Source: a virus
Virus record (IMG/VR): IMGVR_UViG_3300027608_000082
Location: 1-37,100 of that record
Strand: one strand, 5' to 3'
Length of the DNA stretch: 37,100 nt
The notes under the pieces are model-generated. The model was not told the origin of the DNA. It saw nothing but the letters and a program-made list of their open reading frames with translations, and ran no database searches. Position numbers and translations under genes: made by a program. Every line of letters begins with the position of its first letter. Position 1 is the first letter of the stretch. Below, one piece after another: positions 2 through 25,000 of the stretch.

Positions 2-121
2 CCAGAACCCAAGGACGACACCCCGCTCGAATCGTGGGAGGACATCGAATTCGGTATCGACAAGATGATTGCTCACATATCTCAGCAACGCAAGGTAAAG
101 TCGGAACGGAATTCTGAATAA
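2..121 (+). CDS. C-terminal fragment of an unidentified protein
   Basis: An open frame runs in from the window edge and stops with TAA at 119-121. The 39 visible residues end in a basic, hydrophilic tail (QQRKVKSERNSE). The composition is ordinary coding sequence in the same direction as the next genes, but the fragment carries no recognisable motif. The following 180 bases contain a strong promoter, so this gene belongs to an upstream transcription unit. Function unknown. Confidence 0.6.
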   Translation, partial: PEPKDDTPLESWEDIEFGIDKMIAHISQQRKVKSERNSE

Positions 122-155: not shown

Positions 156-184
156 TTGACAAATGACTTAATTTGTGTTACAAT
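156..184 (+). promoter_or_regulatory. Sigma-70 promoter P1
   Basis: The -35 box TTGACA is at 156-161 and the -10 box TACAAT at 179-184, separated by exactly 17 bp. Transcription would start near 191 and give a leader of about 110 nt before the first start codon at 304. That leader contains palindrome copy 1. The -35 region (TTGACAAA) resembles the promoters at 8625 and 17226. Confidence 0.8.
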
Positions 185-240: not shown

Positions 241-273
241 CGGACATACCAACAACCCTGTTGGTTTGTTCGG
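241..273 (-). repeat. Dispersed palindrome copy 1 (inverted orientation)
   Basis: On the - strand this reads GAACAAACCAACA, a 4-nt centre GGGT, then TGTTGGTATGTCC. It is the reverse orientation of the other five copies. Orientation can be told because the element is asymmetric: its left arm has A where a perfect palindrome would need T, and here that appears as a T-T mismatch on the + strand. It lies in the untranslated leader of unit 1, 30 bp before the start codon at 304. Confidence 0.8.
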
Positions 274-303
274 GTTCTTTCAGTCCTTTATTGGAGATGC
301 TTC

Positions 304-501
304 ATGCGTACAACAGACACCAAGTGGGATGCCTTACAGCACTCACACTACCTTGCAACCAACACCGTCGATCCAGACATGGATCTCGACGGGTCTCGTG
401 AGTTCTTCGACCATGACGACGAACACTACGGTTTGACCATCGTCGAGTTTGCCCAAGACCTCGAGCAGATGCGATACCTCAAAGGCTACAACATCCTGTG
501 A
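304..501 (+). CDS. Small acidic hypothetical phage protein (65 aa)
   Basis: First gene of unit 1. ATG 304 is chosen because GGAGA at 293-297 sits 6 nt upstream; in-frame codons back to 232 would run through the palindrome at 241-273. The product is acidic (many Asp and Glu, with a DHDDEH run around residues 37-42) with a probable C-terminal helix. I see no known domain, signal peptide or membrane segment. The stop overlaps the next start (GTGA). Small acidic first-operon proteins in phages are sometimes DNA mimics or host inhibitors, but nothing here proves that. Confidence 0.65.
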   Translation: MRTTDTKWDALQHSHYLATNTVDPDMDLDGSREFFDHDDEHYGLTIVEFAQDLEQMRYLKGYNIL

Positions 502-776
502 CTACATATTCTACAGAATTGAATGACGATCACGGCAGCCACGTCGATGATCGTTTCGACTGGAAGTCATGCACCCTATGCGGGGATGACGTCCATGCAG
601 AGCGCTGGGCCATCGGCTACAGACTCTGCCTACACTGCGGGCAAGAAGCCGCAGTCGCTGATCGCGCATCTTGGTGCGTGGTGCAGACGTACGGCAAGGG
701 GCCGTACATGCTCGTAACTCCCGAAGCTGCCCCGCAGGTTCTGTTGGATACGAATCAGAAGAACCCCCGAGGGTAG
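498..776 (+). CDS. Small zinc-ribbon phage protein (92 aa)
   Basis: GTG start at 498 overlaps the preceding stop, which points to translational coupling; no strong Shine-Dalgarno is adjacent. Two CxxC knuckles, CTLC (about residues 26-29) and CLHC (about 44-47), form a likely zinc ribbon. The C-terminal part has the motif YGKGPYMLVTP and ends in DTNQKNPRG, a pattern I recall from small phage proteins of unknown role. Zinc binding is a reasonable inference; a nucleic-acid or protein target is not shown. Confidence 0.65.
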   Translation: MTTYSTELNDDHGSHVDDRFDWKSCTLCGDDVHAERWAIGYRLCLHCGQEAAVADRASWCVVQTYGKGPYMLVTPEAAPQVLLDTNQKNPRG

Positions 777-777
777 G

Positions 778-796
778 GGTGTGCGCTTCGCACACC
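778..796 (+). other. Strong hairpin without U-tract
   Basis: GGTGTGCG (778-785) pairs perfectly with CGCACACC (789-796) around a 3-nt loop, or as 7 bp around GCTTC. The next bases are AATCTCG, so it is not a standard rho-independent terminator. Palindrome copy 2 begins 7 bp later. It could be an mRNA stability or processing element between the zinc-ribbon gene and the AAA+ gene. Confidence 0.55.
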
Positions 797-802
797 AATC
801 TC

Positions 803-832
803 GAACTAACCAACACCCCTGTTGGTATGTTC
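803..832 (+). repeat. Dispersed palindrome copy 2
   Basis: GAACTAACCAACA (803-815), centre CCCC, TGTTGGTATGTTC (820-832). It has the same arms as the other copies, with one change in the left arm. It lies in the gap between the zinc-ribbon gene and the MoxR-like gene, 30 bp upstream of the latter's start, the same distance as copy 1 from its gene. Confidence 0.85.
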
Positions 833-862
833 TTATAAATCTTTCTTATCAAGGAAACCAAA

Positions 863-1942
863 ATGTCAAGAGAAATATCATTTGTCCGTCGGCTCAACTT
901 CACAGAGACCGTCGACCTCATCCTCAATGCGGGCGAGAACGCAGTGCACCTTACTGGAGAACCCGGAGTTGGTAAGACTGCCATGCACAAAGAGATCATC
1001 AAGCGCACCGGATTCAAGGGCATCTACATCGACGGCCCCAACACCGATGTCGGCCAGTCCGGTATGCCAATCCCCAACCATACGACTCGTACCTTGGATT
1101 TTTATCCCGCAGCGCGTTATGGTTTGCACACAGGCGAACCCCTTGTCATCATGATCGACGAGTGGACAAAGACTGATGACTATGTGCGCAACACCCTGCA
1201 CCCGCTACTGCATGAGCGCAGACAAGGCGACTATGAGTTGCACCCCGAGACCCTTGTCTTCACGACGGGCAACTTGGGTTCGGACAATGTCGGTGACCAT
1301 GTCAAGGCTCATACCCGTAGCCGCGAGACGTGGATCAACTACATGAAACCGACTGCGGCTGAGTGGTTGGTCTGGGCGGGCAACAACGGCGTAGCGCCCG
1401 AGATGCAAGCGTGGGTTAAGGAATACCCGCATTGCATGGCTTCGTACTTGGATGGCGGGCAGAAAGAGAATACGTACATCTATCAGCCGACTGACTCATC
1501 GCAGGAAGCGTTCTTCTGTCCCCGTACTGCGTACAAGGCATCGCATTGGATCAATGTACGTCGCAACATATCAGAGAATTCGTTGATCGCGGCACTCGAC
1601 GGCACGATCGGTAGGCCCGCATCGCGGGACTTGCAGGCGTACATCTCCCTGTCCGATCAGTTACCCATGACTGAAACGATCCTCTCCAGTCCTGATACGA
1701 CTCCTATACCGACAAGCCCAGCGGCTCAATGCATCTTGGCGTTCAAGGCCGTGGCTGTCTCTACCCGCGAGACGTTCGCAACATGGATGCGCTACCTCAA
1801 GCGTATGCCCAAAGAAACACAGGCTGTCTTTATCAACCAGATCCTCGAGATCCCTGTTAAGAAAGCATGGGTTATGTCTCACCCCTCGTTCGTTACATGG
1901 GCGCGTGAGAACCAGTACATGTTTGCCGGATTGAAAGGTTGA
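863..1942 (+). CDS. MoxR-type AAA+ ATPase
   Basis: A 359-aa ATPase of the MoxR/CobS-like AAA+ group. Motifs in order: Walker A GEPGVGKT (32-39), Walker B VIMIDE (95-100), sensor 1 TTGN (134-137), and a candidate arginine-finger segment HTRSR (150-154). The remainder is a helical C-terminal region. ATG 863 follows AAGGAAACC in the leader. MoxR-type ATPases usually work with a VWA-domain partner to remodel proteins or insert metals; a HExxH-VWA protein is encoded at 3560-4861 and a DUF3150-like protein at 6780-7652. Some phage and integrative-element versions are annotated CobS-like, but no cobalt-chelation genes are visible here, so that name would be misleading. The substrate is unknown. Confidence 0.85.
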   Translation: MSREISFVRRLNFTETVDLILNAGENAVHLTGEPGVGKTAMHKEIIKRTGFKGIYIDGPNTDVGQSGMPIPNHTTRTLDFYPAARYGLHTGEPLVIMIDEWTKTDDYVRNTLHPLLHERRQGDYELHPETLVFTTGNLGSDNVGDHVKAHTRSRETWINYMKPTAAEWLVWAGNNGVAPEMQAWVKEYPHCMASYLDGGQKENTYIYQPTDSSQEAFFCPRTAYKASHWINVRRNISENSLIAALDGTIGRPASRDLQAYISLSDQLPMTETILSSPDTTPIPTSPAAQCILAFKAVAVSTRETFATWMRYLKRMPKETQAVFINQILEIPVKKAWVMSHPSFVTWARENQYMFAGLKG

Positions 1943-1944
1943 TC

Positions 1945-2220
1945 ATGAACGATATCGAAATCACAGATGAACAGCGGGCTGATATTAACGAAGTGCGCAA
2001 GCGAATCATGGCCGAGGGCAAGGAAGCATTTCTTTCGCAACACAAGGGCAAGATCAAGGAAGGGTCAGAGGACGGAGAGATGGCCCTCTTTCTGATTAAC
2101 TTCTTTTCCGATGCCTTTTGGCAGGGGTATCTGTTTGCAACAGTTGAACGAGTAAAACAGGAGGTGGATGATGAAATCCTGTTGGCCGAAACTATCTTGA
2201 CTACGGAGAAACAAACATGA
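1945..2220 (+). CDS. Hypothetical helical protein (91 aa)
   Basis: ATG 1945 is preferred over an upstream in-frame TTG at 1939 because AAAGG ends 6 nt before it. The product is charged and probably mostly helical, with an aromatic stretch (LINFFSDAFWQGYLFATVERV) in the middle that could be an amphipathic helix. No known domain. It lies 2 nt after the AAA+ ATPase stop, so it is co-translated with it and could be a small partner, which is inference from position only. Confidence 0.65.
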   Translation: MNDIEITDEQRADINEVRKRIMAEGKEAFLSQHKGKIKEGSEDGEMALFLINFFSDAFWQGYLFATVERVKQEVDDEILLAETILTTEKQT

Positions 2221-2396
2221 ACACAGACGCAATAGTTGCATGGATGTATGTAATCGAGTGCCTTGTCATTTTTAGGAAAGAGGTGCAGAACGATTACGCT
2301 TTTGTCAGGTTGATGGTTGACATGAGAAACGCGTATCCCGACGAATACGAAATGGTATTGGGGTTTTGGGGGTCATCCATAAAGGAAACAAAATGA
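2217..2396 (+). CDS. Hypothetical small protein (59 aa)
   Basis: ATGA overlap with the preceding gene at 2217-2220 and with the next at 2393-2396. The N-terminal half has a moderately hydrophobic stretch (about residues 5-20, IVAWMYVIECLVIFRK) that is short and interrupted by Glu. The C-terminal half includes YPDEYEMVLGFWG. No recognised family. Its reality rests on perfect overlaps at both ends and consistent frame use. Confidence 0.55.
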   Translation: MNTDAIVAWMYVIECLVIFRKEVQNDYAFVRLMVDMRNAYPDEYEMVLGFWGSSIKETK

Positions 2397-2566
2397 ACGA
2401 ACGAAATGCAATACACGAAGCGATGTTGTTCTATTGGGGCGAGCGATGCCCCACGCATGATGCCGAGTGTCATGGGTGTCAGGCATGGGATCAGTATGAC
2501 GCAGTGGTTGCAACCGCACCCGAGGGTGTGTTGCGCATGATTGAAATCAAGGAGGATGAGGTATGA
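2393..2566 (+). CDS. Hypothetical Cys/His-containing small protein (57 aa)
   Basis: ATG 2393 overlaps the previous stop and is preceded by AAAGGAAAC. The sequence CPTHDAECHGC (about residues 19-29) holds three Cys and two His in eleven residues, suggesting a compact metal site. The C-terminus is acidic. No known family. The stop overlaps the next start. Confidence 0.55.
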   Translation: MNERNAIHEAMLFYWGERCPTHDAECHGCQAWDQYDAVVATAPEGVLRMIEIKEDEV

Positions 2567-2721
2567 CACCATCAGAACTTTACGATGCGTTAGACAGAGC
2601 GGGCGCGATCTACGAGATTGTCGAGATCTTTGAAGGCGTTCGCATCATTAGTGTGGTAGTAAACGAGGAACAAACCAACACGGTGTTGGAATGTTCATCA
2701 ACAACAGGAGAGAAATCATGA
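2563..2721 (+). CDS. Hypothetical small protein whose C-terminus is encoded by palindrome copy 3 (52 aa)
   Basis: ATG 2563 overlaps the preceding TGA, with AAGGAGGATGAG just upstream as ribosome binding site. The first 35 residues look like an ordinary small folded protein (LYDALDRAGAIYEIVEIFEG). From about residue 36 the reading frame runs through the palindrome at 2668-2696, giving EEQTNTVLECS, and then through the next gene's Shine-Dalgarno before stopping at 2719-2721. The tail may therefore have been acquired when the repeat arrived. Function unknown. Confidence 0.6.
   Translation: MTPSELYDALDRAGAIYEIVEIFEGVRIISVVVNEEQTNTVLECSSTTGEKS
2668..2696 (+). repeat. Dispersed palindrome copy 3 (inside a coding sequence)
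   Basis: GAACAAACCAACA (2668-2680), centre CGG, TGTTGGAATGTTC (2684-2696). The left arm is identical to the consensus; the right arm has one change. It lies in the last third of the gene at 2563-2721 and ends 22 bp before the next start at 2718, so it is both coding and close to a translation start. Confidence 0.85.
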
Positions 2722-2960
2722 TGACATTGGAAGAATCAAAATTGGCATGGCGTGGCATGGTTGCAACGTACAAGCGTATGCAGGATCATGTCCACAATTT
2801 GTGCTACCGCAAAAATTCAACAACGGGCCAGATACTCGAGGCTCGCGGTCTGGTATTGCAAGCCACTGCAACTATGACTCGCATGGCCAAGCAGTTGGAA
2901 CAGCAGTTTCCTGCCTACGAGTTTGACTTGGAAGGTAAATTTATCAGGAGAGCAAAATGA
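2718..2960 (+). CDS. Hypothetical helical protein (80 aa)
   Basis: ATG 2718 is chosen because AGGAG at 2706-2710 lies 7 nt upstream; the longer frame from 2691 would begin inside the palindrome. The product is basic, Met-rich and probably all helical (LAWRGMVATYKRMQDHVHNL, then MTRMAKQLEQQF). No recognised family. ATGA overlap with the next gene. Confidence 0.6.
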   Translation: MMTLEESKLAWRGMVATYKRMQDHVHNLCYRKNSTTGQILEARGLVLQATATMTRMAKQLEQQFPAYEFDLEGKFIRRAK

Positions 2961-3211
2961 GTATTGAAAAAGTTAGACGAGCTGATGACATTGAAGAAGC
3001 GCGTATACGTGCGGTGCAGAAAGCCATTGGGGCACTATTCAATGCCTCGGAGTTGACTAAAGCTATGGTCTGGAACGTACTTGTCAATATGCTCTGCGGC
3101 ATGACCATTGAGTTTGATATAGACAAGGATGATTTGATGGATACCGTTTCTAACGTGTACGACATGCAAGCGTTGCACATGGTCGAGCTTGACACCGATA
3201 AACCCAACTAG
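2957..3211 (+). CDS. Hypothetical protein (84 aa)
   Basis: ATGA overlap with the upstream gene; AGGAGAGC precedes the start. The N-terminal part is charged and helical (EKVRRADDIEEARIRAVQKAI). The second half is more hydrophobic with acidic ends (FDIDKDDLMDTVSNVYDM). No motif that I recognise. Cytoplasmic by appearance. Confidence 0.6.
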   Translation: MSIEKVRRADDIEEARIRAVQKAIGALFNASELTKAMVWNVLVNMLCGMTIEFDIDKDDLMDTVSNVYDMQALHMVELDTDKPN

Positions 3212-3220
3212 GGAGAGACC

Positions 3221-3385
3221 ATGACGATACCAGAGACCACCCGAGAACAGACCGTCGAGAAGGTCTATCAAACCGGCATGCAGCTTGCTCAACACTTGCG
3301 CATGCTTGACTTAAACGAGGAAGCCCATCTCTTGGAGATGTGGATTCTTGATGTCAAAGAAACAGGAGGACACCCAAATGATTGA
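3221..3385 (+). CDS. Hypothetical small helical protein (54 aa)
   Basis: ATG 3221 follows GGGAGAG. The product is an acidic, probably single long-helix peptide (EQTVEKVYQTGMQLAQHLRM, LNEEAHLLEMWILDV). The frame ends at 3385, overlapping the next start by 8 nt, so the Shine-Dalgarno AGGAGG of the next gene is coding here. Function unknown. Confidence 0.5.
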   Translation: MTIPETTREQTVEKVYQTGMQLAQHLRMLDLNEEAHLLEMWILDVKETGGHPND

Positions 3386-3563
3386 AGTATCAATCACAGA
3401 AATCGTATTGTTTGCGTGGGCGATCATAGCTACGGGCTATGCGCTCAAGTACAAACAGATCAAGCACCAATCGGATGTGTTTATCCACACACTGCTTGAA
3501 AACAAAGAACTGCGCGACGAACTTGTGGCAGATTATGAACAATTCCAGAGAGGACAATCATGA
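3378..3563 (+). CDS. Small single-pass membrane protein (61 aa)
   Basis: ATG 3378 is preceded by AGGAGG at 3364-3369. Residues about 6-22 (ITEIVLFAWAIIATGYA) form a convincing transmembrane helix, followed by basic residues KYKQIKHQ and then a charged helical tail. Positive charge after the helix suggests an N-out, C-in topology. The stop overlaps the start of the VWA gene, so it may help place that module at the membrane, although that is inference. Confidence 0.65.
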   Translation: MIEVSITEIVLFAWAIIATGYALKYKQIKHQSDVFIHTLLENKELRDELVADYEQFQRGQS

Positions 3564-4861
3564 GTACAGTAATTGTGAAGAGTAAGTTATCAGCCGAGAA
3601 ACGAATCGAGTTGGTACATGTGAGCTTGATGAGGAACCAGAAGTTTGCGTTCTTCGCGGGCTTGTTTATGGTCGGGTCTACGACGATAGATGAACGACCT
3701 GTAACAGCGTACACGAACGGTCGTGACGCAGGGTATGGCAGAGCATTCGCTGACTCATTGACCGACAAAGAGTTGGCGTTTCTTGTCATGCACGAGAACA
3801 TGCACAAGTGCTATCGACACCTGACAACGTGGAAAGCGTTGAAAGAGATCAACCACAAGGTAGCGGGCGCGGCGTGCGACTACGTGATCAACATCCAGTT
3901 GGTAGACATGGATCCCGATGAGGAATTCATCGCGTTTCCCCGTTCTAAAGAAACAGGTGAGCTTGATGGTTTACTCGACCCTGCTTATCGTGGCATGGAC
4001 ACCAAGCAAGTCTTCGACATTCTCATGAAGAAGTGCAAGGGTGGCAAGGGTGGTAAAGGTGGCGAGGAAGGCAACGGCAATCCTATCGACGGGTCAGGCA
4101 AAGGCAACGCCAAGGACGGAACAAACCAACCAAGTGTTGGTAAGTTCGGTGACAAGGAAGGCTTCGATGCCCATGACTGGGACGGTGCGCAAGAGATGTC
4201 CGAGGAAGAGAAGAAGCAACTCACTCAAGAGATCGAGCAAGCCATACGCCAAGGCGGTATCTATGCGGGCAAGTTTGGCGGCAAGACACCACGCGAGATC
4301 GGCGAGCTTCTCAACCCCAAGGTTGACTGGCGAGAGGTGCTGAAAAGATTCACCCGGAACAACATCAAGGACAGGGACTCTATCTCATGGCGCAGGGCGC
4401 ACAAGAACTTCTTGTGGCAAGACATCATCCTGCCGAGCATCCTTGGCAAGCGCATGAAGTATCTGTTGCTGGGTATGGACACATCCGGTTCTGTAGAAGG
4501 GCAGTTGCTGACGGACTTTCTCTCCGAGATGAATGGCTTGGTCAAGTCAGTTGGCATCGACCGCATCGACATCGTGTACTGGGACGCAGAGGTACAGGCG
4601 CATGAGATCTTTACAGGTTCTACCAAAGACATTGTGCACCGCACCAATCCCAAAGGCGGTGGTGGTACGAACCCTGACGTTGTGGTTGATCTGATTCTTG
4701 AGAAGCAGTTGAAGCCCGACGCGATCATCATGCTGAGTGATGGTTACATGCACACCAACAAGGGTAAGTGGTCTGCGATCACACAACCTACTCTGTGGTG
4801 CATCATCGGTAACGACAACTACGAGGTTCCAAATGGACAAAAGCTCGTCATTACTAACTGA
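3560..4861 (+). CDS. HExxH metallopeptidase-like plus VWA-domain protein (DUF2201-like)
   Basis: A 433-aa two-domain protein. The N-terminal domain carries HENMH (78-82), the HExxH zinc-binding motif typical of the putative metallopeptidase domain that precedes VWA-like domains in this family. A Gly/Lys-rich linker (about 155-200) follows. The C-terminal domain is VWA-like with the MIDAS motif DTSGS (307-311), a GGGGTNP segment and LSDGY near residue 394. Partner proteins of this type act with MoxR-type AAA+ ATPases, and one is encoded at 863-1942. ATG 3560 overlaps the preceding stop. Palindrome copy 4 sits in the linker. Whether the HExxH site cleaves anything is unknown; in some family members it may be structural. 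Confidence 0.8.
   Translation: MSTVIVKSKLSAEKRIELVHVSLMRNQKFAFFAGLFMVGSTTIDERPVTAYTNGRDAGYGRAFADSLTDKELAFLVMHENMHKCYRHLTTWKALKEINHKVAGAACDYVINIQLVDMDPDEEFIAFPRSKETGELDGLLDPAYRGMDTKQVFDILMKKCKGGKGGKGGEEGNGNPIDGSGKGNAKDGTNQPSVGKFGDKEGFDAHDWDGAQEMSEEEKKQLTQEIEQAIRQGGIYAGKFGGKTPREIGELLNPKVDWREVLKRFTRNNIKDRDSISWRRAHKNFLWQDIILPSILGKRMKYLLLGMDTSGSVEGQLLTDFLSEMNGLVKSVGIDRIDIVYWDAEVQAHEIFTGSTKDIVHRTNPKGGGGTNPDVVVDLILEKQLKPDAIIMLSDGYMHTNKGKWSAITQPTLWCIIGNDNYEVPNGQKLVITN
4119..4149 (+). repeat. Dispersed palindrome copy 4 (inside the VWA gene)
   Basis: GAACAAACCAACC (4119-4131), centre AAG, TGTTGGTAAGTTCGG (4135-4149). It is read here as GTNQPSVGKFG, a different frame from copy 3. It lies in the disordered Gly-rich linker between the HExxH and VWA domains, the place where a small insertion would do least harm. 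Confidence 0.8.
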
Positions 4862-5270
4862 TGCTGACCCACTGATCGTATGTGAGAAGTGGCATCGCTC
4901 TGTCGGAGTGAACATTGACCGCACATGGTTGGAGGTACGCTTGAACCCAGCGGGCATGAGACTTATCCAAGGGGTCGACGCAGATGTCGAATTCGTGGAA
5001 GGTTTCGGCCACCATGTTGAGGTGATGGGCGCGATGCACAACGCTGGAGTTACTCCGCTTGACTTGAAGAACCCTGATGGTCTGGAGAAACTTCATCGTT
5101 GGATGGTGAAGGAATCAAGTGAGTTGGATGGAGACCCGATCACTAGGTTTCTGATGCCCGATCTGTTACTGCACTTACTGGAAGAAGGTTTCCCGTACGC
5201 AGTGAAATGTAAAAACGATAGCCCCTTATTGGGTTGGTTTGTAGTTCTTGGAGGAAAACAGTATGGATGA
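4833..5270 (+). CDS. Hypothetical protein (145 aa)
   Basis: ATG 4833 overlaps the last 29 nt of the VWA gene and has GAGG at about 4823; the longer frame from 4737 would overlap the VWA gene by 125 nt. It looks like a globular cytoplasmic protein with acidic patches (GVDADVEFVEGFGHHVEVMG) and a helical C-terminal half (MPDLLLHLLEEGFPYAV). No family recognised. Translational coupling to the VWA gene suggests a role in the same module. Confidence 0.65.
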   Translation: MDKSSSLLTDADPLIVCEKWHRSVGVNIDRTWLEVRLNPAGMRLIQGVDADVEFVEGFGHHVEVMGAMHNAGVTPLDLKNPDGLEKLHRWMVKESSELDGDPITRFLMPDLLLHLLEEGFPYAVKCKNDSPLLGWFVVLGGKQYG

Positions 5271-5520
5271 AAATCAAGTGATTCTTTTTATTGGGGATCA
5301 AAAGTTTTTGTTGAGCATGGAAGAGGCTATGGATATCTCGCGGGTCTTGTGTGGTGCGTCACGCATTACTACATCATGGCTTGGTCAGGGGCACGAAAAC
5401 AGAAGCAACACAGTCATAGCCGAGCCTGACCCGAAGGCGGCAACCATTGCGCCAATGACTGGGATTATGCAGTTGGATATTGATACCAACATGAAGATTC
5501 TTGCGGAGAAGAAACGATGA
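5263..5520 (+). CDS. Hypothetical protein (85 aa)
   Basis: ATG 5263 has GAGGAAAA just upstream and overlaps the previous stop by 8 nt. Residues 4-33 look like beta-beta-helix (VILFIGDQKFLLSMEEAMDI). The C-terminal half is polar and probably flexible. No known domain. Confidence 0.6.
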   Translation: MDENQVILFIGDQKFLLSMEEAMDISRVLCGASRITTSWLGQGHENRSNTVIAEPDPKAATIAPMTGIMQLDIDTNMKILAEKKR

Positions 5521-5678
5521 CCAATTCAAAAACGGGGTACTCGGTTGCCCTTAACAAAGAAACCTTTGATCTCTTGCAGACCGTAAGAGAACAACTGGTA
5601 GGACTGATGGGCTTTGAGCCTACAAACGGACAGGTGGTTCGCCACTTAATTTCCCTCTTTATTGAAAGGAAGATGTGA
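5517..5678 (+). CDS. Small possible ribbon-helix-helix protein (53 aa)
   Basis: ATGA overlap with the gene before it. The layout of a short strand (YSVALNK) followed by two helices (ETFDLLQTVREQLVGLMGF and TNGQVVRHLISLFIERK) is what ribbon-helix-helix DNA-binding proteins show. Length and pattern fit, but there is no diagnostic motif. If correct it could be a local repressor, and the palindromes in this unit would be candidate operators; both points are inference. Confidence 0.5.
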   Translation: MTNSKTGYSVALNKETFDLLQTVREQLVGLMGFEPTNGQVVRHLISLFIERKM

Positions 5679-6724
5679 TGGGATACGGATACAGCGGATA
5701 CAACACAGCAAACGTGCCGTGCCTTGAATCATTCGAGGCTGCGGTACAGAAATTCAAATCAACTACGCCTATTCGCAGTAAGCAAGCGAAGGGCGCTGTC
5801 CCACTTGGTGAGCGCAAGAAGCACCACATGGCGAGCATCGCTATGCCTGACGACGACACAGTTCAACTGATCTACTACGGTAAGCCGTTGGTGGTATGGA
5901 AATCGGACGACACATTCGAAGTGTTCTCCCCGCATTACCACTCGCCGTACGTGGTCGGGAACATTCAGAACTACGTACCCAGTAGCGTAGGTTTTCACTG
6001 GGACAGAGGGCGCATGTGCTTGATTGTCAAAGAACAGAGGTTCCTGTTACCCCAAGACAAGAGCTTTAAGTTTAGGAACACACCCCATTCTGTAGAACTG
6101 CTTGATATTCCGATGGAGTACGCGATCAGAAAGAAGCGTGGCGTGGAGAAGAAGTATCTCAAAGACTGCGAGCCGTTCCTCGAATGGATGGAGTTGGTGC
6201 AGTCGATCGACAACGTCCCGAAAGATCCTGTCGACGAGATGGATGCCGCGATGGATGCTTTGTACAAAGAGCTTGGTCTCATGTCCATCAAAGGGTTTGA
6301 GAAGTGGTCGGCTGACTGGGCTTTGAGACCCGCAGAAGCAAACACCCCTGACCGATGGCAGATCAACCGTAACCGCGATTACTTACCGCATGGCGGGAAA
6401 GGCCAATACAAAGGTGCAAAACATGGCTTCCATACGAAAGGCTGCGAGTTGCTTATGGACTGGGTCACAGGCCCACTCAGTGAGAACTGGGTGACTGCGT
6501 ACTACGTACTCATGCAACAGCAAGGCGAGCGTGGGTATAAACACACCACCGGTGGCCGCGAGTGGTCTGTTTGGCTTGATCGCAAATCTGCCACTGAGTA
6601 CCTCAAGGAAATCATCTTGCATCTGCACTTTGACGAGTGCTTTGTCAAGGAACCGCTTGCGCAGGGCGAAATCCCAACCAAGCAGAACTCCGAGTACATC
6701 CATGTATTCACGGAGTTACTTTGA
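5678..6724 (+). CDS. Unknown phage protein (348 aa)
   Basis: ATG 5678 overlaps the previous stop (TGATG) and has AAAGGA 7 nt upstream; GTG 5675 is the less likely alternative. The protein starts MGYGYSGYN, has a mixed alpha/beta first half, a charged helical middle (DPVDEMDAAMDALYKELG) and an aromatic C-terminal part (HTTGGREWSVWLDRKSATEYL). I recognise no catalytic motif, signal peptide or membrane span. It sits between the VWA gene and the DUF3150-like gene and is a good candidate for a further component. Palindrome copy 5 begins at its stop codon. Confidence 0.7.
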   Translation: MGYGYSGYNTANVPCLESFEAAVQKFKSTTPIRSKQAKGAVPLGERKKHHMASIAMPDDDTVQLIYYGKPLVVWKSDDTFEVFSPHYHSPYVVGNIQNYVPSSVGFHWDRGRMCLIVKEQRFLLPQDKSFKFRNTPHSVELLDIPMEYAIRKKRGVEKKYLKDCEPFLEWMELVQSIDNVPKDPVDEMDAAMDALYKELGLMSIKGFEKWSADWALRPAEANTPDRWQINRNRDYLPHGGKGQYKGAKHGFHTKGCELLMDWVTGPLSENWVTAYYVLMQQQGERGYKHTTGGREWSVWLDRKSATEYLKEIILHLHFDECFVKEPLAQGEIPTKQNSEYIHVFTELL

Positions 6725-6752
6725 ACAAACCAACATTTCGTTGGTATGTTCG
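6723..6752 (+). repeat. Dispersed palindrome copy 5
   Basis: GAACAAACCAAC (6723-6734), centre ATTTC, GTTGGTATGTTC (6740-6751). Both arms match the consensus exactly. The element starts within the stop codon of the 348-aa gene and ends 28 bp before the next start at 6780, again about 30 bp upstream of a gene. Confidence 0.9.
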
Positions 6753-6779
6753 TGTCAATCAACCTATATTGGAAACCAA

Positions 6780-7652
6780 ATGCAAACTTTTGAATCTCCC
6801 CCAATCTCGCTGGCCTCAATGGCTATGCTTGTCGAACTCCGTATCAGTACGTGGACTGCGCGTAAGCGTGACAAAGAAACCACTGCTGACCTGAACACAG
6901 CCAAAGAAGCTGACCAAGACGCAAGCTCTGTGTACAAGTACCTCATGGCGGGCAGTGATCATCTCAACAAGATAGAGAAGTACGCGGCTAAGTGTCGTGC
7001 GTGGAATGGTACGCAGACCCTGCCGTGGATGAAGGGTATCGGCTTACTCCCGATGGAGAACTTCTTCAGCTATCGTGAACAGCTCGGTACTATGGAATCC
7101 AACTTCAACTCGCTAGTCAATGACTTCATACTAGCTTACCCGACGTTGGTTAGTGCGCAGGCGTTCAAGCTCGGTAAGTACTTCGATGCGTCAGAGTTTC
7201 CCGATGCCGCATCTTTGCCCCGTCGCTTCAAGTTTGAGTTCAACTTTCTCCCCGTCCCAGAGAAGGGTGACTTCCGCATCCAATGCGAGGAACGTGTACG
7301 TCAGGACTTGGCTGAGCAGTACGACAAGATGTTCAACAACAAAATGATCGAGGCTATGCGTGATCCGTGGGACAGACTGCACAAGATGTTGGCACGGATG
7401 AGTGAGACCCTGACTGACAAGGAAGATGGCAAACGCAATATCTTTCGCGATAGTCTGGTCAACAACGCTCTAGAGTTATGTGGTCTGTTGTCCGTACTCA
7501 ACGTGATGAAAGACCCAGCGCTTGAAGAAGCTCGACGTATGCTAGAGAAAGCAATCAATGGCATCGACGCGGAAGACCTACGCAAGATACCTAGCGCACG
7601 CGCTGAGTTGAAGCACAGCGTAGACGATATCCTCAACAAATTCCAATGGTGA
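6780..7652 (+). CDS. DUF3150-like protein of the AAA+/VWA module
   Basis: ATG 6780 is preceded by GGAAACC, as at the AAA+ gene; longer in-frame starts would run through the palindrome. The 290-aa protein is largely helical. The N-terminal VELRISTWTARKRD, the middle LGKYFDASEFPDAASLPRRF and the overall length resemble my recollection of DUF3150, a family of unknown activity found beside MoxR/CobS-like ATPases and VWA/CobT-like proteins in mobile elements. Finding it in the same unit as both partners supports this. No catalytic residues are evident; a scaffold or adaptor role is a guess. A profile search against DUF3150 would settle the family. Confidence 0.55.
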   Translation: MQTFESPPISLASMAMLVELRISTWTARKRDKETTADLNTAKEADQDASSVYKYLMAGSDHLNKIEKYAAKCRAWNGTQTLPWMKGIGLLPMENFFSYREQLGTMESNFNSLVNDFILAYPTLVSAQAFKLGKYFDASEFPDAASLPRRFKFEFNFLPVPEKGDFRIQCEERVRQDLAEQYDKMFNNKMIEAMRDPWDRLHKMLARMSETLTDKEDGKRNIFRDSLVNNALELCGLLSVLNVMKDPALEEARRMLEKAINGIDAEDLRKIPSARAELKHSVDDILNKFQW

Positions 7653-7656
7653 ACAC

Positions 7657-8514
7657 ATGAGTAACTTTGCAAACATAAGACTACCAGCAGACAAGCTGAT
7701 CGACCCGTTCCTCAAGGTACTGGTGGACAAGCTCGCGCTCAACAATCCGAAGTGGGCTTTCTCAACCAACAAGGATTCTCAGAGCATGGCGATAGGCTTC
7801 AAGTATGATGACTCCACAGGTAAAGCACCGGATGGGTTTACCTACACGCGCACTATCTTTGTGCGAGAGGAAGGCGAGATGCTCGGGCAGATATCTGTTG
7901 ACAGTGGGTACAGACGTAATTCATACAAGCCGTTGTACGAGATCAAGTCGTGGCGCATCGCGACTGTCCGTGGCGGGCAGAACATAACCAGAACAGAGAA
8001 GCTGGACATTGCCGCCCGTAAGGTGAAGAAGTCGTTCGTCCGCATGGATCACAGCGAGTTCTTGAAGAAGGCCGTTGACACAGTCACATCCAATGTGACT
8101 CAGTGTACGCAAGCCTTGCGAAGACCTATTGCAGACAGGAGGCTTATCAAAGACAGCGTGTACCTACAGAAGTGGGCATACTGTGTTGCCCGCGACATAC
8201 CCATCCCCGATGAGATCAACAACCACATGAGGGAGATCCTTAAGTCTGATGCGTATGCGCAAGCTATGGGTGAGTACGAACTAGCGACTGACTTTGAGAT
8301 GTTGCGCGGCAACGATAAAACAACCGTCATCGCTGAGAAGGACGGGCAGTACATCTTCAGAGATGAGCATGATGTCATCATGGCGCTTGAGTACGCAAGT
8401 CTACCCCAGTCGTGGCAAGAGCGTATCGCAGTGCTACAGCTAATGCAAGACGACGAACTTGTGCGTGACGTAGGTTACAGGTACAATGATAAACACTTCA
8501 TGATTCTTACGTAA
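7657..8514 (+). CDS. Unknown phage protein (285 aa)
   Basis: ATG 7657 lies 4 nt after the DUF3150-like stop, with a weak ribosome binding site. The first half is beta-rich and polar (FSTNKDSQSMAIGFKYDDST, then FVREEGEMLGQISVDSGYRR); the second half is helical and charged. No recognised motif. It is the last gene before the terminator at 8533, so it completes the AAA+/VWA unit. Confidence 0.7.
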   Translation: MSNFANIRLPADKLIDPFLKVLVDKLALNNPKWAFSTNKDSQSMAIGFKYDDSTGKAPDGFTYTRTIFVREEGEMLGQISVDSGYRRNSYKPLYEIKSWRIATVRGGQNITRTEKLDIAARKVKKSFVRMDHSEFLKKAVDTVTSNVTQCTQALRRPIADRRLIKDSVYLQKWAYCVARDIPIPDEINNHMREILKSDAYAQAMGEYELATDFEMLRGNDKTTVIAEKDGQYIFRDEHDVIMALEYASLPQSWQERIAVLQLMQDDELVRDVGYRYNDKHFMILT

Positions 8515-8532
8515 CCTTTGATTGCTCCCTTT

Positions 8533-8560
8533 GACCCGCCTATGTGCGGGTCTTTTTTTT
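8533..8560 (+). terminator. Rho-independent terminator T1
   Basis: A 7-bp stem GACCCGC/GCGGGTC (8533-8539 and 8546-8552) around a 6-nt loop is followed by eight T residues (8553-8560). It lies 18 bp after the stop at 8514 and should end unit 1. Confidence 0.92.
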
Positions 8561-8564
8561 GCCT

Positions 8565-8595
8565 GAACAAACCAACACCGCGTTGGTATGTTCGG
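8565..8595 (+). repeat. Dispersed palindrome copy 6
   Basis: GAACAAACCAAC (8565-8576), centre ACCGC, GTTGGTATGTTC (8582-8593), then GG. Both arms match the consensus exactly. It begins 5 bp after the T-tract of terminator T1 and ends 30 bp before the -35 box of promoter P2. It is therefore probably not in the main transcript, which argues for a DNA-level role for at least this copy. Confidence 0.9.
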
Positions 8596-8624
8596 TGTAT
8601 AGTAGATACCCCTATTAAAAAGAC

Positions 8625-8653
8625 TTGACAAAGTCTAAAGTTACCCATATATT
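8625..8653 (+). promoter_or_regulatory. Sigma-70 promoter P2 with embedded inverted repeat
   Basis: TTGACA at 8625-8630, a 17-bp spacer, TATATT at 8648-8653. The -35 box is centred in the inverted repeat AGACTT-GACA-AAGTCT (8621-8636), a plausible operator. Transcription would begin near 8660, leaving a short leader before GTG 8676. The first 15 bases around the -35 box (ACTTGACAAAGTCTA) are identical at promoter P3. Confidence 0.85.
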
Positions 8654-8675
8654 AGAGGCTTCACAGGAGATAAGT

Positions 8676-13756: not shown

Positions 13757-14124
13757 AGCGCCACCCCACCAGCGGCAAGCCGATACTTAACGATCCGGAT
13801 GCAGACGGGCTTTACACCTGCCAGTACACGGGACTAAAGGTGTCGCGTGAAGAGGCCATCTTCTTGGGGCCATGCGTACCACAGGTCAACGGTACATACG
13901 TGTGCCACCCGACTGCACTGCCATTCTTTAAAAAGTCCAAGCGCCTGTTTGACGAGAGTGAGGCTAACTGCAATACCTGCAAGCACCTTGTCCGTGTAAA
14001 GCATGAACCGAGGAAGAGTGGCATGTTGGAGGGGGCGTGCCACACAAATCCCAAGCTGCTGTTCCACCCCGATGACTTCATGGGAATGAATTGCTACGAA
14101 CAAAGACAGGAGAAGAACACATGA
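13753..14124 (+). CDS. Cysteine-rich hypothetical protein (123 aa)
   Basis: Eight cysteines are spread along the chain (in YTCQYTG, GPCVP, VCHP, NCNTCKH, GACHT and NCYEQ), consistent with one or two zinc sites. CNTCKH and GACHTNP resemble small phage zinc-binding proteins. It is the first of four consecutive genes whose products end in EKNT; here the ending is QEKNT, encoded by junction copy 1. No function known. Confidence 0.65.
   Translation: MKRHPTSGKPILNDPDADGLYTCQYTGLKVSREEAIFLGPCVPQVNGTYVCHPTALPFFKKSKRLFDESEANCNTCKHLVRVKHEPRKSGMLEGACHTNPKLLFHPDDFMGMNCYEQRQEKNT
14108..14124 (+). repeat. EKNT junction repeat, copy 1
   Basis: AGGAGAAGAACACATGA. It encodes the C-terminal EKNT of the gene ending here, supplies AGGAG as the next gene's ribosome binding site, and contains the overlapping start (ATG 14121) and stop (TGA). 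Confidence 0.85.
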
Positions 14125-14300
14125 CATTCCAAGAATGGGTCAAAGCATTGCCCGAAAAAGAGCGATACAAGTTTTTTGCGGCAATGATCGCAGTGAGTGA
14201 AGCTGGGCGTAAGGCGGGCGTATCTCCTCAAGAATGGGCACGGACGTACGTTGATGTTCACAATGAAGTACACCAACAGCTCAAGGAGAAGAACACATGA
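14121..14300 (+). CDS. Small EKNT-tailed protein (59 aa)
   Basis: Starts and ends at identical junction sequences. The chain is helical and charged (FQEWVKALPEKERYKFFAAM, then AGVSPQEWARTYVDVH) and ends in KEKNT. No recognised domain. Being bounded by the same 17 bp on both sides, it has the form of an exchangeable cassette. Confidence 0.6.
   Translation: MTFQEWVKALPEKERYKFFAAMIAVSEAGRKAGVSPQEWARTYVDVHNEVHQQLKEKNT
14284..14300 (+). repeat. EKNT junction repeat, copy 2
   Basis: AGGAGAAGAACACATGA, identical to copy 1. The identity with copy 4 extends 4 nt further upstream (CTCA), giving 21 matching bases. It contains the start ATG 14297. Confidence 0.85.
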
Positions 14301-14482
14301 CACCAATTGAATTTGTTATTTTTGAGGGCGACAGTACGCCTAACCAACCTGTGTATCAAATAGCAGAAGCTATGCAAAAGACGATAAAAATCTTTGGTGG
14401 CAACAAAGAGTGGGAAGTTATCGGTTACTACTACGGTGACGAGGGTCACATGGTGTTGGACATCAGGGAGAAGAACACATGA
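14297..14482 (+). CDS. Small EKNT-tailed protein (61 aa)
   Basis: ATGA overlaps on both sides within junction repeats. The product looks like a small alpha/beta protein (IEFVIFEGDS, then VYQIAEAMQKTIKIF and EWEVIGYYYGDEGHMVLDI) ending in REKNT. No family recognised. Confidence 0.6.
   Translation: MTPIEFVIFEGDSTPNQPVYQIAEAMQKTIKIFGGNKEWEVIGYYYGDEGHMVLDIREKNT
14466..14482 (+). repeat. EKNT junction repeat, copy 3
   Basis: GGGAGAAGAACACATGA, one base different from the others at its first position. It contains the start ATG 14479. Confidence 0.82.
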
Positions 14483-15117
14483 TTGATAAGGAAACGCTAT
14501 GGGCGGGTTCTCCCGTACCTGTAAACGACCATGATTGGCGTTGCAAGTGTGAGGACTGCATCATCATCCGGTGGTTAAAAGCCGAGAAAGAAGTTGTTGC
14601 CCTACACAAAATACTTGAAGGTCAAAGGCAAAAGTGGGTAACGATGGTAATGGTTGAGGGTATTTCTCGAAGTAGATGGGAAACAGATGAAGGAATTGAA
14701 TTAGTCAAATCAACTTGGAAAAGAAGCCAAATACCTGACTCACACCTTGAAGACCCCAACGACATCTTTCCTAAGTTGCAAAGATATACGCGACTAATTG
14801 ATGATGGCCTAAGAGAGTTAAATTGGACTGCATTTGTTTTTGGAAACCGCTTTGAAGAACACGCTGATTTATTACCACCGAAGGAGAAAAAAATACCAAT
14901 CATTAAAGACGATTACGAGCGCGGAGTTATTGACGGAATGCAAAAGCAAGCGCAATCTAGTGTGGACAAAGCAGTCAACGCAATGGCACAGCGCACATGG
15001 GTGGGGCTAACGGCGGAGGAAATCTTAGACTCGTTTGACTCAAACAATGTTTACGGGAGTAAATGGGTAGAGTTTGCCCGATACATTGAAGCCAAACTCA
15101 AGGAGAAGAACACATGA
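14479..15117 (+). CDS. EKNT-tailed phage protein with AT-rich core (212 aa)
   Basis: Bounded by junction copies 3 and 4. An N-terminal CKCEDC (about residues 22-27) suggests a metal site, and the ending IEAKLKEKNT with the preceding LTAEEILDSFD resembles a C-terminal motif I recall in many small phage proteins. The middle of the gene, about 14640-14900, is visibly richer in A and T than its neighbours, as if the core came from another source while the ends were kept. Charged, mostly helical, cytoplasmic. Function unknown. Confidence 0.65.
   Translation: MIDKETLWAGSPVPVNDHDWRCKCEDCIIIRWLKAEKEVVALHKILEGQRQKWVTMVMVEGISRSRWETDEGIELVKSTWKRSQIPDSHLEDPNDIFPKLQRYTRLIDDGLRELNWTAFVFGNRFEEHADLLPPKEKKIPIIKDDYERGVIDGMQKQAQSSVDKAVNAMAQRTWVGLTAEEILDSFDSNNVYGSKWVEFARYIEAKLKEKNT
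15101..15117 (+). repeat. EKNT junction repeat, copy 4
   Basis: AGGAGAAGAACACATGA, identical to copies 1 and 2. It contains the start ATG 15114. A related but changed junction (AAGGAGAAGTTTAATGC) follows at 15270-15286. Confidence 0.85.
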
Positions 15118-15290
15118 AATCGTTTGAAGAAATTGCCAAAGAAGCAAAGATAGAGTTGACACCTGAGCTACGTCACTTTGCTTGGCTTGTGAACCATTAC
15201 GCCCTGCTTGATTTTTGGACATCGGCAAAAAGGCAGTTGGAGTTCCAACAAGAAGTTTTAATCAAAGCCAAGGAGAAGTTTAATGCTTGA
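15114..15290 (+). CDS. Hypothetical small protein (58 aa)
   Basis: ATG 15114 overlaps the preceding stop inside junction copy 4. The chain is helical (FEEIAKEAKIELTPELRHFAW, then LEFQQEVLIKAKEK) and ends KAKEKFNA, which looks like a mutated form of the EKNT ending, since the underlying DNA keeps AAGGAGAAG. No family recognised. Confidence 0.55.
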   Translation: MKSFEEIAKEAKIELTPELRHFAWLVNHYALLDFWTSAKRQLEFQQEVLIKAKEKFNA

Positions 15291-15849: not shown

Positions 15850-17229
15850 ATGCAGACTTACACATGGCCGCGCCCTATGGGGTTTGAGCCTTTTGATCAT
15901 CAAAAAGTAACGTCATCATTTCTTGTGGCCAACCCTCGGGCGTTCTGCTTTAACGAGCAAGGTACTGGAAAGACTGCATCAGTAATATGGGCTGCTGATC
16001 AGCTCATGAATGCGGGCATAGTCAAGCGCGTCTTGGTTGTGTGCCCGTTGTCCATCATGCAGTCCGCATGGCAAGCTGACCTGTTTAAGTTTGCGGTGCA
16101 CCGGTCTGTAGACGTAGCATACGGAGACCCCAAGAAGCGGGCGAAGATTGTCACAGGCACTGCTCAATTCGTAATCATCAACTACGACGGTCTGGCCACA
16201 ATCGCGGACGAGTTGCTGAACTACGGCAGATTTGATTTGATCGTCATTGATGAGGCCAACGCCTACAAGAACGTCCAAACCAAACGCTGGAAGCTGATGA
16301 ATAGGATGCTCACGCCAAGCACACGGTTGTGGCTGCTGACCGGAACACCTGCTTCGCAGTCTCCGCTTGATGCGTATGGACTGGGCCGTCTGTGTGCGCC
16401 TAATAAAGCACCGCGTTTCTTTGGCGACTACCGCGAGTCTGTCATGCAGCAATTAAGTATGTATCGCTGGATACCACGCCCCAACGCAGAGCAGATTGTG
16501 TTTGATATGCTCCAGCCAGCGATTCGGTTTACCAAGGAGGAATGCCTTGATCTACCAGAAGTGATGCACATCAGTAGGTTTGCGGCGCTTACTCCATCGC
16601 AGTCCAAGTACTACAAGATGCTCAAAGACCAACTGCTTATTGAGGCGGCGGGCGAGGAGGTCAGTTCGGTCAATGCGGCGGCAAAGATGAATAAGTTGCT
16701 TCAGATTTCTTGCGGCTCGGTGTACACAGACACTGGAGCGGTAATAGAGTTTGATGTGTCTAATCGTTTGAACGTCATCAAAGAAGTGATTGACGAGGCC
16801 AGCCATAAAGTATTGATCTTCGTACCGTTCAAACACACGATATCAATGCTCAGTGAATACCTTGTTAAAGAAGGTATTACTTGTGAAGTCATCAATGGAG
16901 ATGTGCCTGTTTACGCACGCACAAGGATATTTAAAAACTTTCAAGAAACAAAAGACCCAAAAGTACTGGTGATACAACCCCAAGCAGCAGCACACGGGGT
17001 AACCCTGACCGCTGCCAATGTTGTCATCTGGTACGCTCCGGTTACGTCCACAGAGACGTATCTGCAAGCCAACGCCCGCATCAACAGGCCGGGCCAGCGC
17101 AATAACATGACCATAGTGCACATCGAAGGAAGCCCCATCGAGCGTAAGCTGTACGCCATGTTGCAGAGCAACATAACAAACCACGAAAAAGTGGTTGATC
17201 TTTACAAAAAAGAATTGGCAGATACTTGA
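15850..17229 (+). CDS. SNF2-type superfamily 2 helicase
   Basis: 459 aa, the compact phage form. Motif I GTGKT (38-42), motif II DEAN (134-137, in place of DEAH), motif III LLTGTP followed by ASQSP, and motif VI QANARINRPGQ (406-416) are all present in order, so both RecA-like lobes are complete. Such enzymes translocate on double-stranded DNA and in phages are thought to help replication, recombination or removal of bound proteins. ATG 15850 lies 3 nt after the HNH-like stop with only a weak ribosome binding site. It is the last gene before promoter P3. Confidence 0.93.
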   Translation: MQTYTWPRPMGFEPFDHQKVTSSFLVANPRAFCFNEQGTGKTASVIWAADQLMNAGIVKRVLVVCPLSIMQSAWQADLFKFAVHRSVDVAYGDPKKRAKIVTGTAQFVIINYDGLATIADELLNYGRFDLIVIDEANAYKNVQTKRWKLMNRMLTPSTRLWLLTGTPASQSPLDAYGLGRLCAPNKAPRFFGDYRESVMQQLSMYRWIPRPNAEQIVFDMLQPAIRFTKEECLDLPEVMHISRFAALTPSQSKYYKMLKDQLLIEAAGEEVSSVNAAAKMNKLLQISCGSVYTDTGAVIEFDVSNRLNVIKEVIDEASHKVLIFVPFKHTISMLSEYLVKEGITCEVINGDVPVYARTRIFKNFQETKDPKVLVIQPQAAAHGVTLTAANVVIWYAPVTSTETYLQANARINRPGQRNNMTIVHIEGSPIERKLYAMLQSNITNHEKVVDLYKKELADT

Positions 17230-17254
17230 CAAAGTCTAGTACAAGCCATATAAT
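17226..17254 (+). promoter_or_regulatory. Sigma-70 promoter P3 (perfect consensus)
   Basis: TTGACA at 17226-17231, a 17-bp spacer and TATAAT at 17249-17254, matching both consensus boxes at all twelve positions. The -35 box overlaps the stop of the helicase gene's tail (TGA at 17227-17229). ACTTGACAAAGTCTA is shared with promoter P2. Transcription would begin near 17261 and serve genes from 17282. Confidence 0.93.
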
Positions 17255-17281
17255 AACTCTCACAACAACTAAAGGAACTTC

Positions 17282-21978: not shown

Positions 21979-22007
21979 GCCCCGCCGTAAAAAGCGGGGC
22001 GTTTTTT
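21979..22007 (+). terminator. Rho-independent terminator T2 at the point of convergence
   Basis: A 7-bp stem GCCCCGC/GCGGGGC (21979-21985 and 21994-22000) with loop CGTAAAAA is followed by G and six T residues. On the - strand the stem is followed by AAATTAAG, so it works mainly for the rightward units. It ends inside the stop codon of the leftward gene. Confidence 0.9.
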
Positions 22008-25000
22008 ATTGCGCGTCCCTTCCAAACGGATTTTCTCCGGCTGGTGTACTTTCCTCCACGGGGGCTGGCTTGTTCTCCTCCTCCGTTATCTTCCGTATGT
22101 ACGTGTCTTTGAACAAGTAACGCAGTTTGGGGTTGACGTACAGACCATGATCTGATTCCGCTTGTTTCTCAAGCTTACCCCGTACAGAACTCAGCAGGGT
22201 ATCTACATCCACCGCAATCGTTGGGTACTTGGCGCTAAACTTAATCAGGTCTGCAATTGCTTTTTGCGTGCCCTTTTCATCGTTGGTCATTATGGTCAGA
22301 CCAAAGATGTTCAGTAAGTTTTCGCGGTTCTTAAGGATTGCTTCACTTTGGCCTTTAACTTTTATGTTGCGGAATTGAATTTCTGCAAGCTCAGAAGAAC
22401 GTATACCTAGAGACTGCATCATCAATTCAAAGGGTGTAAAATCTTTTTTCATGATGTCACCCTGCAAAGTCCGCGCACCTTTAGTTGCGTACCTATCGGC
22501 AATAAACGGCTGTTTTGCAAACCCGGGGAGCAGGGCTTCAGCGGCGCGATCTCCATGACCTTTGTTGTAAAGGTCGTATGCACGTGCAAAGTTAACGCCT
22601 AAGTTTGGAAGTGGGCCAAGTGCGGCTATATACATTTGTTTAAGCGAGGCTTCTGCGTCTAAGTTATTACGCCCGTCTCTAAACCACATATCATCCAGTT
22701 TCAAACGGCTGTTTAAATCTATACCAGCGGCGTTGCCAACACCACGTGACACCATAGTGCCCATGTTCTTACCAAACGTATTGACCGCCCAGTTTGCAAA
22801 CTCAAGCTCAAAGTCAAACGGTTCGTCATCATCGTCACCAAAAGCCGCACAAGCTTCAACAATAGCCGCCACAGTCGAAAAGCCCCAGAGACCAGTGACT
22901 CCAGTCATGATGGCAGTCGTACCCATTATGCCGACAAACCTAGCGCGGGCTTCGCGCTTATCCGCTTCTGGCAATTTACCAGATGAATTCCAAGCGTTGC
23001 GGGCCAAGAACCAAGTCATTTGGTGCGGAAATTGTTTAAACTGAAAAATAATCCTTGCCGGTGCGCTTTGCAACCAACGGGGTTTGTTGACACCCGAGTA
23101 ATCAAACATAGCCCGGTGCGTCAAATCTTTTGCGTCGGCTATTGACTCGGTAAACGTATTCCTGCGCATACCACTCAGTTCACGCCGCAGAAGAACCTCG
23201 GCCTTGGAATTACCGGATTGAACGGCAGTATTAAGGTTATTTACCAAATCTTTGTATCTCTTTGACGCTTCCATGTCAGCAACGCGTTTCTCATAAGCTG
23301 CCCTAAAAGAAGTCATAGCCATAACTTCGCGGTTGAACCGCTCTGCATGGTGAAAAGAATAAGCAATAACCTGCATTGCTTTGTTTGAGAAACCAGAATA
23401 ATCAGTGGTTGCGTTTGATGCTAGACCCGATTGATCATAAGTTGCCGTTATATCAATTAGTTGATCAGCAACAAAACGGTTATATGCCGCCCTGTCTATA
23501 GCGGACAAAGATTTTGATCTATCCAGCGATGGCGACAAAAGCCTTGACTCCATAAAGCTCCCACCACCTTCAATATCAAACCCCGTGGCAAAAATCTGAG
23601 CTGCTGTTTTTGATGCGCTGTACAGCACTCGACCCGTTGCTTCTGTGTACCCCATATTAGGATACATGCGGACTAGCTGGCCAACCATTGTCGGTATTCC
23701 AATTACTGCACCGCCCAGCACGTTGATTGCCGCAGTACCAAGAGAACTCAAATAGTAAATGAACCCAAGGTTTGAAAGCCCCGCTACCCATGCACCCACG
23801 TCAACTGGGTCTAATATTGCCTTTAGGCGCTTGTCAAGTTCGGTTACATAGCCGGTTAGTTCATCATTTTCCGCAGTTACTACCGGGTCGTATCTTGCCC
23901 CGGGTGTAAACCTACCCTTAATCTGCGCTCGTGCCGCCGACAACTGAGAGAACATCTCGGGGGAGTATTCCAAACGAGCCATTTGATACGCCATACTGTA
24001 AGACGACGACGAAAAAACGCGGAGGGCGTCTTCAGAGTATCCCGCAACACTGTTGCGGTGAATAAAAGCATTACGCATACTACGCTCTGGCTGGTTAACC
24101 AAATACGTCTGGTACAAGTTGTCTTTCATTTCGGCTTTTCGATCTGCTGCGTCAATTAGCGAAAGACCTGTTATGTTCATGCTGTCTATGGCAGCAAAAG
24201 CTTCTTTTAAAAAATTAGATTGACTGGCGTGCAAATCCATTTGCTGTTTATACTCACTGCCTATATTTGGGCCGATGGAGTCTTCTAACGCAATGCGGGC
24301 GGCTTGGTTAGGTGCTTGCTCCAATCGCTCTTGCAAGTGCGCTTCCCGCGCAGCTTGTGACTCAAACATGTAGTACTCGCGCTTTGCCCCCTTACCAATC
24401 TGATACCAGAATTGGCCAAAGCGCATAAGTGGAAAGTAAACCCCTTTTCTCTTTCCTTTTTCGAACTCAGCACGAATTTCTATGATGGTTTTTGCGTCCG
24501 CGCCGCCAGACGCAAGATCACTTTGTACTTTCTTGGTAAACCCAGAGCGCAGCAAAGTATTTAGCGTGTCCTCAGAAGGACTGTAATTTTCAATACGAGC
24601 CAAAACATTTTCCGGCACGCCTTCAATGTGCGCCAGCATTTTAGAAATTTGATAGTTAGACGGGCCAAGTCCGCGCATGTTGTTTATGCGTTGTCTCATT
24701 AACCGTTTATATTGGTTGTACTGACGTTCGTAGAAATCACGTACCGCGCGGTAGATGTTTCGGGCTTCAGGAGTAAGTTTGTTCCAGTCGGCCATTAACT
24801 GGGGGTTATTTATTTGTTGGGCGCGTGTGGCTTTGTCTGGGTCGATTTCCAAAATTGTTGCGCTGTGCATGACAACACCGATTTGGCGCGACATAGCAAA
24901 ATTATTAGCCTGCAACCGAACCCATCTACGAGATATGTCCCCTGACTCTTTCAGCGTGTTTGCTGTGCGGGATAGGAATTTATCTGCCTCCTTGATAAAG

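Follow-up and report, generated by a model that had tools for sequence, protein, structure and literature searches.

The window, a 37.1-kb IMG/VR record of a virus that was analysed over its whole length, contains six copies of a palindrome belonging to an array that is dispersed over the early transcription unit of a group of uncultured phages. The palindromes are very probably bound by n259, a helical protein of 215–259 aa encoded by the first gene of the unit, as judged from sequence comparison between relatives. We slightly favor the reading that they are double-stranded DNA sites through which n259, as an autoregulated sequence-specific binder, would brake the early unit.

A half-site model identified exactly six sites in the window and none in the reversed sequence; i.e., the six copies listed in a preliminary description of this DNA were all recovered, and the rest of the 37.1 kb was free of them, as had been claimed. 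Two copies match the arms exactly, compared with 0 expected in the shuffled sequences that the preliminary description had proposed as a control. Each copy consists of two 12-nt half-sites, GAACAWACCAAC, flanking 5 nt in copies 3–6 and 6 nt in copies 1 and 2, which corrects the center of 3–5 nt given earlier. The constant stem mismatch was located at half-site position 6 and is A/A, but T/T in copy 1; therefore, copy 1 is reversed. The element is thus directional, as had been suggested, and its direction inverts at one pivot across relatives. Copies 2–4 show one further mismatch.

All genes of the unit are on the plus strand. The window begins with the C-terminal 39 codons of a zinc/HNH-like 221-aa protein (2–121, plus strand), followed by a sigma-70 promoter (TTGACA-17-TACAAT, 156–184, plus strand) upstream of site 1 (242–271, minus strand, GGACATACCAAC-AACCCT-GTTGGTTTGTTC). 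This site has reversed polarity; the -10 box of the strong promoter is 57 nt upstream of it, and an ATG at 304 is 32 nt downstream. Site 2 (803–832, plus strand, GAACTAACCAAC-ACCCCT-GTTGGTATGTTC), the pivot site, is in the leader of the MoxR-type AAA+ ATPase gene (863–1942, plus strand), the ATG of which begins 30 nt downstream at 863, and was found in essentially all relatives. Sites 3 and 4 are within coding sequence. Site 3 (2668–2696, plus strand) is at the 3′ end of a 52-aa gene (2564–2719), shortly before the next start, and site 4 (4119–4147, plus strand) is in a Gly-rich linker (GTNQPSVGKF) of the DUF2201 metallopeptidase-VWA gene (3560–4861, plus strand), where its position is conserved in relatives despite a changed sequence class. 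Site 5 (6723–6751, plus strand) starts at the stop codon of a 349-aa gene, 28 nt before the ATG of the DUF3150 gene (6780–7652, plus strand), which, like the AAA+ and VWA genes, is within the array. The final site 6 (8565–8593, plus strand) is between an intrinsic terminator (GACCCGC..GCGGGTC-T8, 8533–8560, plus strand) and the following sigma-70 promoter (TTGACA-17-TATATT, 8625–8653, plus strand). Near-identical strong promoters (ACTTGACAAAGTCTA...CATATA) were observed at 8623–8654 and 17224–17255, the second without a palindrome, and a leader, GGAGAAGAACACATGA, is repeated four times at 14104–15128 as the start context of consecutive genes. PHROG 1314 labels the family of the gene at 3560–4861 as "HNH endonuclease"; this name looks wrong because Pfam assigns a DUF2201 metallopeptidase-VWA protein.

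Viral contigs scanned with a degenerate palindrome pattern gave matches in this phage group only. The sole genome match to the pattern, in Acinetobacter rudis, was dismissed as being at about chance level (0.3 expected by our own estimate), and Megablast of the first 20 kb of the window against phage records returned a 45-bp match only. A search with the AAA+ protein yielded 49 loci, and genome-specific half-site models identified 317 sites in about 40 uncultured phages or loci, 283 of which are 12-N5-12 inverted repeats. Each genome contained 5–11 sites, all within about 12 kb, compared with 0–1 in reversed controls, and long contigs (62–66 kb) showed none outside the array. Two out-of-array sites in one genome (G017) were the effect of a circularly permuted contig; both ends of this contig (L080–L083) fall within the array and point to circular permutation of the map. 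In the close relatives, the site count is exactly 8; the sites span approximately -3.5 to +7.8 kb relative to the AAA+ start, and the remainder of these contigs has none. Their first sites fall left of the window edge; i.e., the window cuts the array, and the 2–3 additional leftward sites in relatives account for the total of eight. Almost all of the more distant relatives carried an inverted repeat at approximately -58 of AAA+, albeit of different sequence. The preliminary description had named relatives devoid of palindromes as the outcome that would speak against it, and the relatives retained their sites. Site spacing was approximately 1.25 kb regardless of gene content, gene interiors included. 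In one relative, L016, we also noted an extended non-coding segment (approximately 7800–8600; -2.2 to -1.4 kb of AAA+) that contains a 31-bp inverted repeat as well as repeated GGTAGTAACGCGGTAG and is a candidate origin or regulatory region.

All sites of any one genome share a single half-site consensus, and this consensus switches in concert between lineages (GAACAWACCAAC, GAACAAWCCGAC, GAACAAATCGAA, GGAAWWACCCTK, GGAATNATCGAC and GGACNNATCGAC) at orthologous positions, including the interior of the VWA gene. Among the three options offered earlier, a site for a dimeric protein was supported, whereas a structured RNA and a recombinase core were both disfavored. Two observations favor hairpins that act as RNA, in processing, translation control or antitermination: stem covariation exceeded shuffles and slid controls in a pair count on 24 sites, and several sites are 21–38 nt ahead of start codons. 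However, covariation, which had been put forward as the test for RNA, is misleading in this case, since an identical signal is expected from a dimer site that co-evolves with its protein, and the covariation found is explained by the concerted half-site change across every site of a genome. An RNA stem would predict that the two arms of a site match each other better than they match arms taken from elsewhere in that genome; at positions 5–7, the arms matched worse than when shuffled within genomes (z -4.9, -7.0 and -5.4). Only 2 of 288 cells in the 24 sites were G-U, position 6 was unpaired in 19 of the 24, and the last site follows the terminator and precedes the next promoter in 30 of 30 genomes. 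An Rfam scan gave no match and a tRNA scan returned nothing. The anti-complementary mid-stem, the near absence of G-U intermediates and the last site past the terminator make an RNA function very unlikely.

It is extremely unlikely that the palindromes are core sites of a recombinase or hairpin promoters used by a virion RNA polymerase. The arm and spacer lengths resemble those of Xer/dif-type cores; however, the spacers differ between copies, and a search of seven long contigs, some of them possibly incomplete, revealed neither a tyrosine nor a serine recombinase. Recombinase cores are disfavored on these two grounds. A 2480-aa protein matches the N-terminus of the N4 virion RNA polymerase, whereas the four large window proteins showed no catalytic motifs, the 2480-aa protein had no PDB match, and start-adjacent sites at equal placement carry opposite polarity. 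The N4-type promoter was therefore rejected for lack of RNA polymerase motifs and of a PDB match. The 2480-aa protein (22006–29448, minus strand) combines an N4 vRNAP-like N-terminus, without polymerase motifs, with LPD39 and a DarB-like C-terminus.

The gene for n259 is off the left edge of the window and has a site in its own leader. We screened 12 neighboring proteins for co-variation with the motif, and n259 tracked it best (rho 0.61 with a Mantel p of 0.001; 0.54 as a partial correlation controlling for AAA+ distance). Between clearly different motifs, n259 identity was at most 48%, whereas most other proteins reached 62–97%. The comparison of L024 with L027 is an example: AAA+, VWA, PolA and DUF3150 are 82–97% identical (AAA+ 92%, DUF3150 97%), n259 is 39% identical, and the motifs differ. 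Conversely, L028 and L025 share the same motif despite an n259 identity of just 47%. The possibility that the binder is another neighboring protein, e.g., the zinc/HNH-like 221-aa protein, was also considered, since almost every relative encodes the latter within its array and the protein is fast-evolving. Its motif correlation, however, was 0.10–0.15, and the L031 copy is L026-like (62%) although the L031 motif is that of L027. The zinc/HNH-like protein was rejected as the binder on these two results, and any neighbor other than n259 is an improbable candidate. This 221-aa protein (8624–9286 in L016) carries a CVNPYHH motif and has apparently lost the usual catalytic His; it showed no match in Pfam or in cultured phages.

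Segment analysis indicated that n259 residues 145–187 track the outer bases of the half-site and residues of about 41–151 the inner bases. Three residues, chosen after inspection, paired with single bases in 33 of 33 genomes: M, V or I at 162 with A2 and K162 with G2; R166 with C4 and other residues with A4; and R143 with C12 and E or A with A or T. All four combinations of bases 2 and 4 were found, each with the expected n259 residues, and base 4 and residue 166 each changed 6 times, concordantly, on the AAA+ tree. Columns of n259 scored best of any protein for bases 4 and 12, whereas columns from other proteins equaled or beat n259 for bases 2, 8, 10 and 11; independent changes were scarce, numbering about 7 when traced on the n259 tree, and sign tests were underpowered. 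A new n259 search supplied a held-out set of 17 previously unused loci representing few independent lineages. The inverted repeat was 65–75 nt ahead of the n259 ATG in 17 of 17, and all three residue–base predictions were correct in 17 of 17, most of which repeat known combinations. Where R166 or R143 is present, the complementary strand of the site has G, which is what Arg–guanine contacts would require.

AlphaFold models of n259 (pLDDT 84–85, pTM about 0.5) were helical, with a 46-residue helix and with positions 139/143 and 162/166 on successive helices. n259 showed no Pfam, PHROGs or PDB relative and no recognizable DNA-binding fold, a Foldseek structure search with two n259 models found no relative, and none was found in cultured phages. 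Codon bias gave only moderate support for very high expression of n259. In the mechanism that we propose, an n259 dimer, which is probable, would bind each palindrome; helix 157–173 (positions 162 and 166) would read the outer GAAC/GGAA/GGAC part of the half-site, and the preceding helix 130–146 (positions 139 and 143) the inner CCAAC/TCGAC part. Accumulating n259 would then block its own promoter-proximal leader, and n259 on the remaining sites would obstruct RNA polymerase throughout the early unit. The array with its limits, the concerted switches, the residue–base concordance and the polarity are read directly from the sequences; from these we infer n259 binding, its dimerization, the transcriptional effect and the timing.

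The array opens at the promoter that drives the first plus-strand gene and closes in the gap between terminator and next promoter in 30 of 30 genomes, in agreement with the single transcription unit described earlier. In all 30, the intrinsic terminator directly precedes the last site, and a strong promoter follows approximately 32 nt after it. Sites occupy leaders shortly after promoters or before ribosome-binding sites, intragenic linkers and the position past the terminator. The leader sites end 38, 30 and 28 nt upstream of n259, AAA+ and DUF3150, respectively; the n259 site and the -600 site are each preceded by a promoter, and several other array sites have no nearby promoter. A brake on the early unit is proposed because the n259-leader site is located between the n259 promoter and the n259 ATG, further sites are downstream of promoters or upstream of ribosome-binding sites, and the array ends with the unit. 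The searches recovered neither a recombinase, in seven contigs of which some are possibly incomplete, nor ParA or ParB, which makes a lysogeny repressor or a partition site less likely.

The polarity of the sites speaks against a plain brake and suggests an architectural component. Upstream of the AAA+ leader site, position 6 is A in the right half in 82% and T in the left half in 49%, whereas downstream it is A in the left half in 79% and T in the right half in 60%. At positions 5–7, 199 sites point inward and 37 against (z 11.6, a value that overstates independence because the sites share descent), and the best polarity breakpoint adjoins the -60 site in 32 of 35 genomes. Polarity inverts although the unit is transcribed in one direction, for which a simple roadblock gives no explanation. 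n259 and its polar array may instead form an architectural complex that folds, bridges or loads the early region, such as a looped domain, a replication center or a segregation-like complex; we hold this reading tentatively, as possible but not probable. The inward polarity and its flip are consistent with it, as is the spacing, which is independent of gene content, and the 46-residue helix could serve bridging. However, the orthologous positions number only about 8, and by our estimate chance alone would produce two such blocks in roughly 5–10% of cases; moreover, the array limits coincide with a promoter and a terminator, and ParA and ParB were not found. A replication origin at the pivot, suggested by raw GC skew, was rejected because four-fold-site GC skew gave no signal. 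The fullest version of the architectural reading, in which a lytic phage uses polar sites aimed at one pivot, bound by a new protein family with at least 6–7 specificity classes, to fold or mark the early region, is rather unlikely.

We found no description of an identical system in the literature; leads came only through stoperators, SPBRE and ESAS. The stoperators of Cluster A mycobacteriophages (L5, TipsytheTRex repressor) are 13-bp asymmetric sites bound by a monomer; their orientation follows transcription, they halt transcription elongation, and the phages are temperate (PMC9283540, PMC6550527). Similarly, one phage protein, here putatively n259, would serve numerous sites scattered over promoter regions and short gaps, and motif and binding protein diverge together between phages. 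Here, however, the sites are 29–30-bp palindromes, orientation inverts within one unit, the protein is unrelated, and no integrase was found in the seven contigs, some possibly incomplete. SPBRE, a 15-bp motif in promoter regions of phage SPbeta, is bound by MrpR, a lysogeny-maintaining protein with the fold of a tyrosine recombinase (PMC10516654). The present array shares with it a repeated element at several loci and, presumably, one phage protein, whereas n259 showed no similarity to tyrosine recombinases in Pfam, PDB or Foldseek searches. ESAS elements of Cluster K mycobacteriophages are described as having 17-bp arms and 4–13 bp spacers beside a 13-bp SAS, with unknown function (PMC3203893). 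Both are imperfect inverted repeats whose spacer varies in length; both occur near translation starts of non-structural genes and are kept at orthologous genes, the ESAS consensus varying by subcluster. In contrast, SAS is not above chance here, intragenic and post-terminator sites occur here, and a binder is not known to have been proposed for ESAS. The idea of dispersed sites is thus common to all three systems, and each fails at least one defining feature that we tested. N15 centromere repeats and KorB operators also comprise several palindromes dispersed over kilobases. Unlike such partition operators, the present array was found without a ParA or ParB family protein.

Dispersed phage operators are a known kind; the family, the putative readable code and the polarity that inverts at the AAA+ leader site are new. 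The analysis adds, from some 300 sites and sequence alone, a putative DNA-binding protein family without a Pfam, PHROGs or PDB relative. Nature provides matched protein and site variants, and specificity can therefore be tested through simple swaps. The findings also raise the question of why an apparently lytic phage would diversify operator specificity, as temperate phages diversify immunity. If the architectural reading is true, the polar array would represent a phage system that organizes DNA directionally and whose protein–DNA recognition code can be read.
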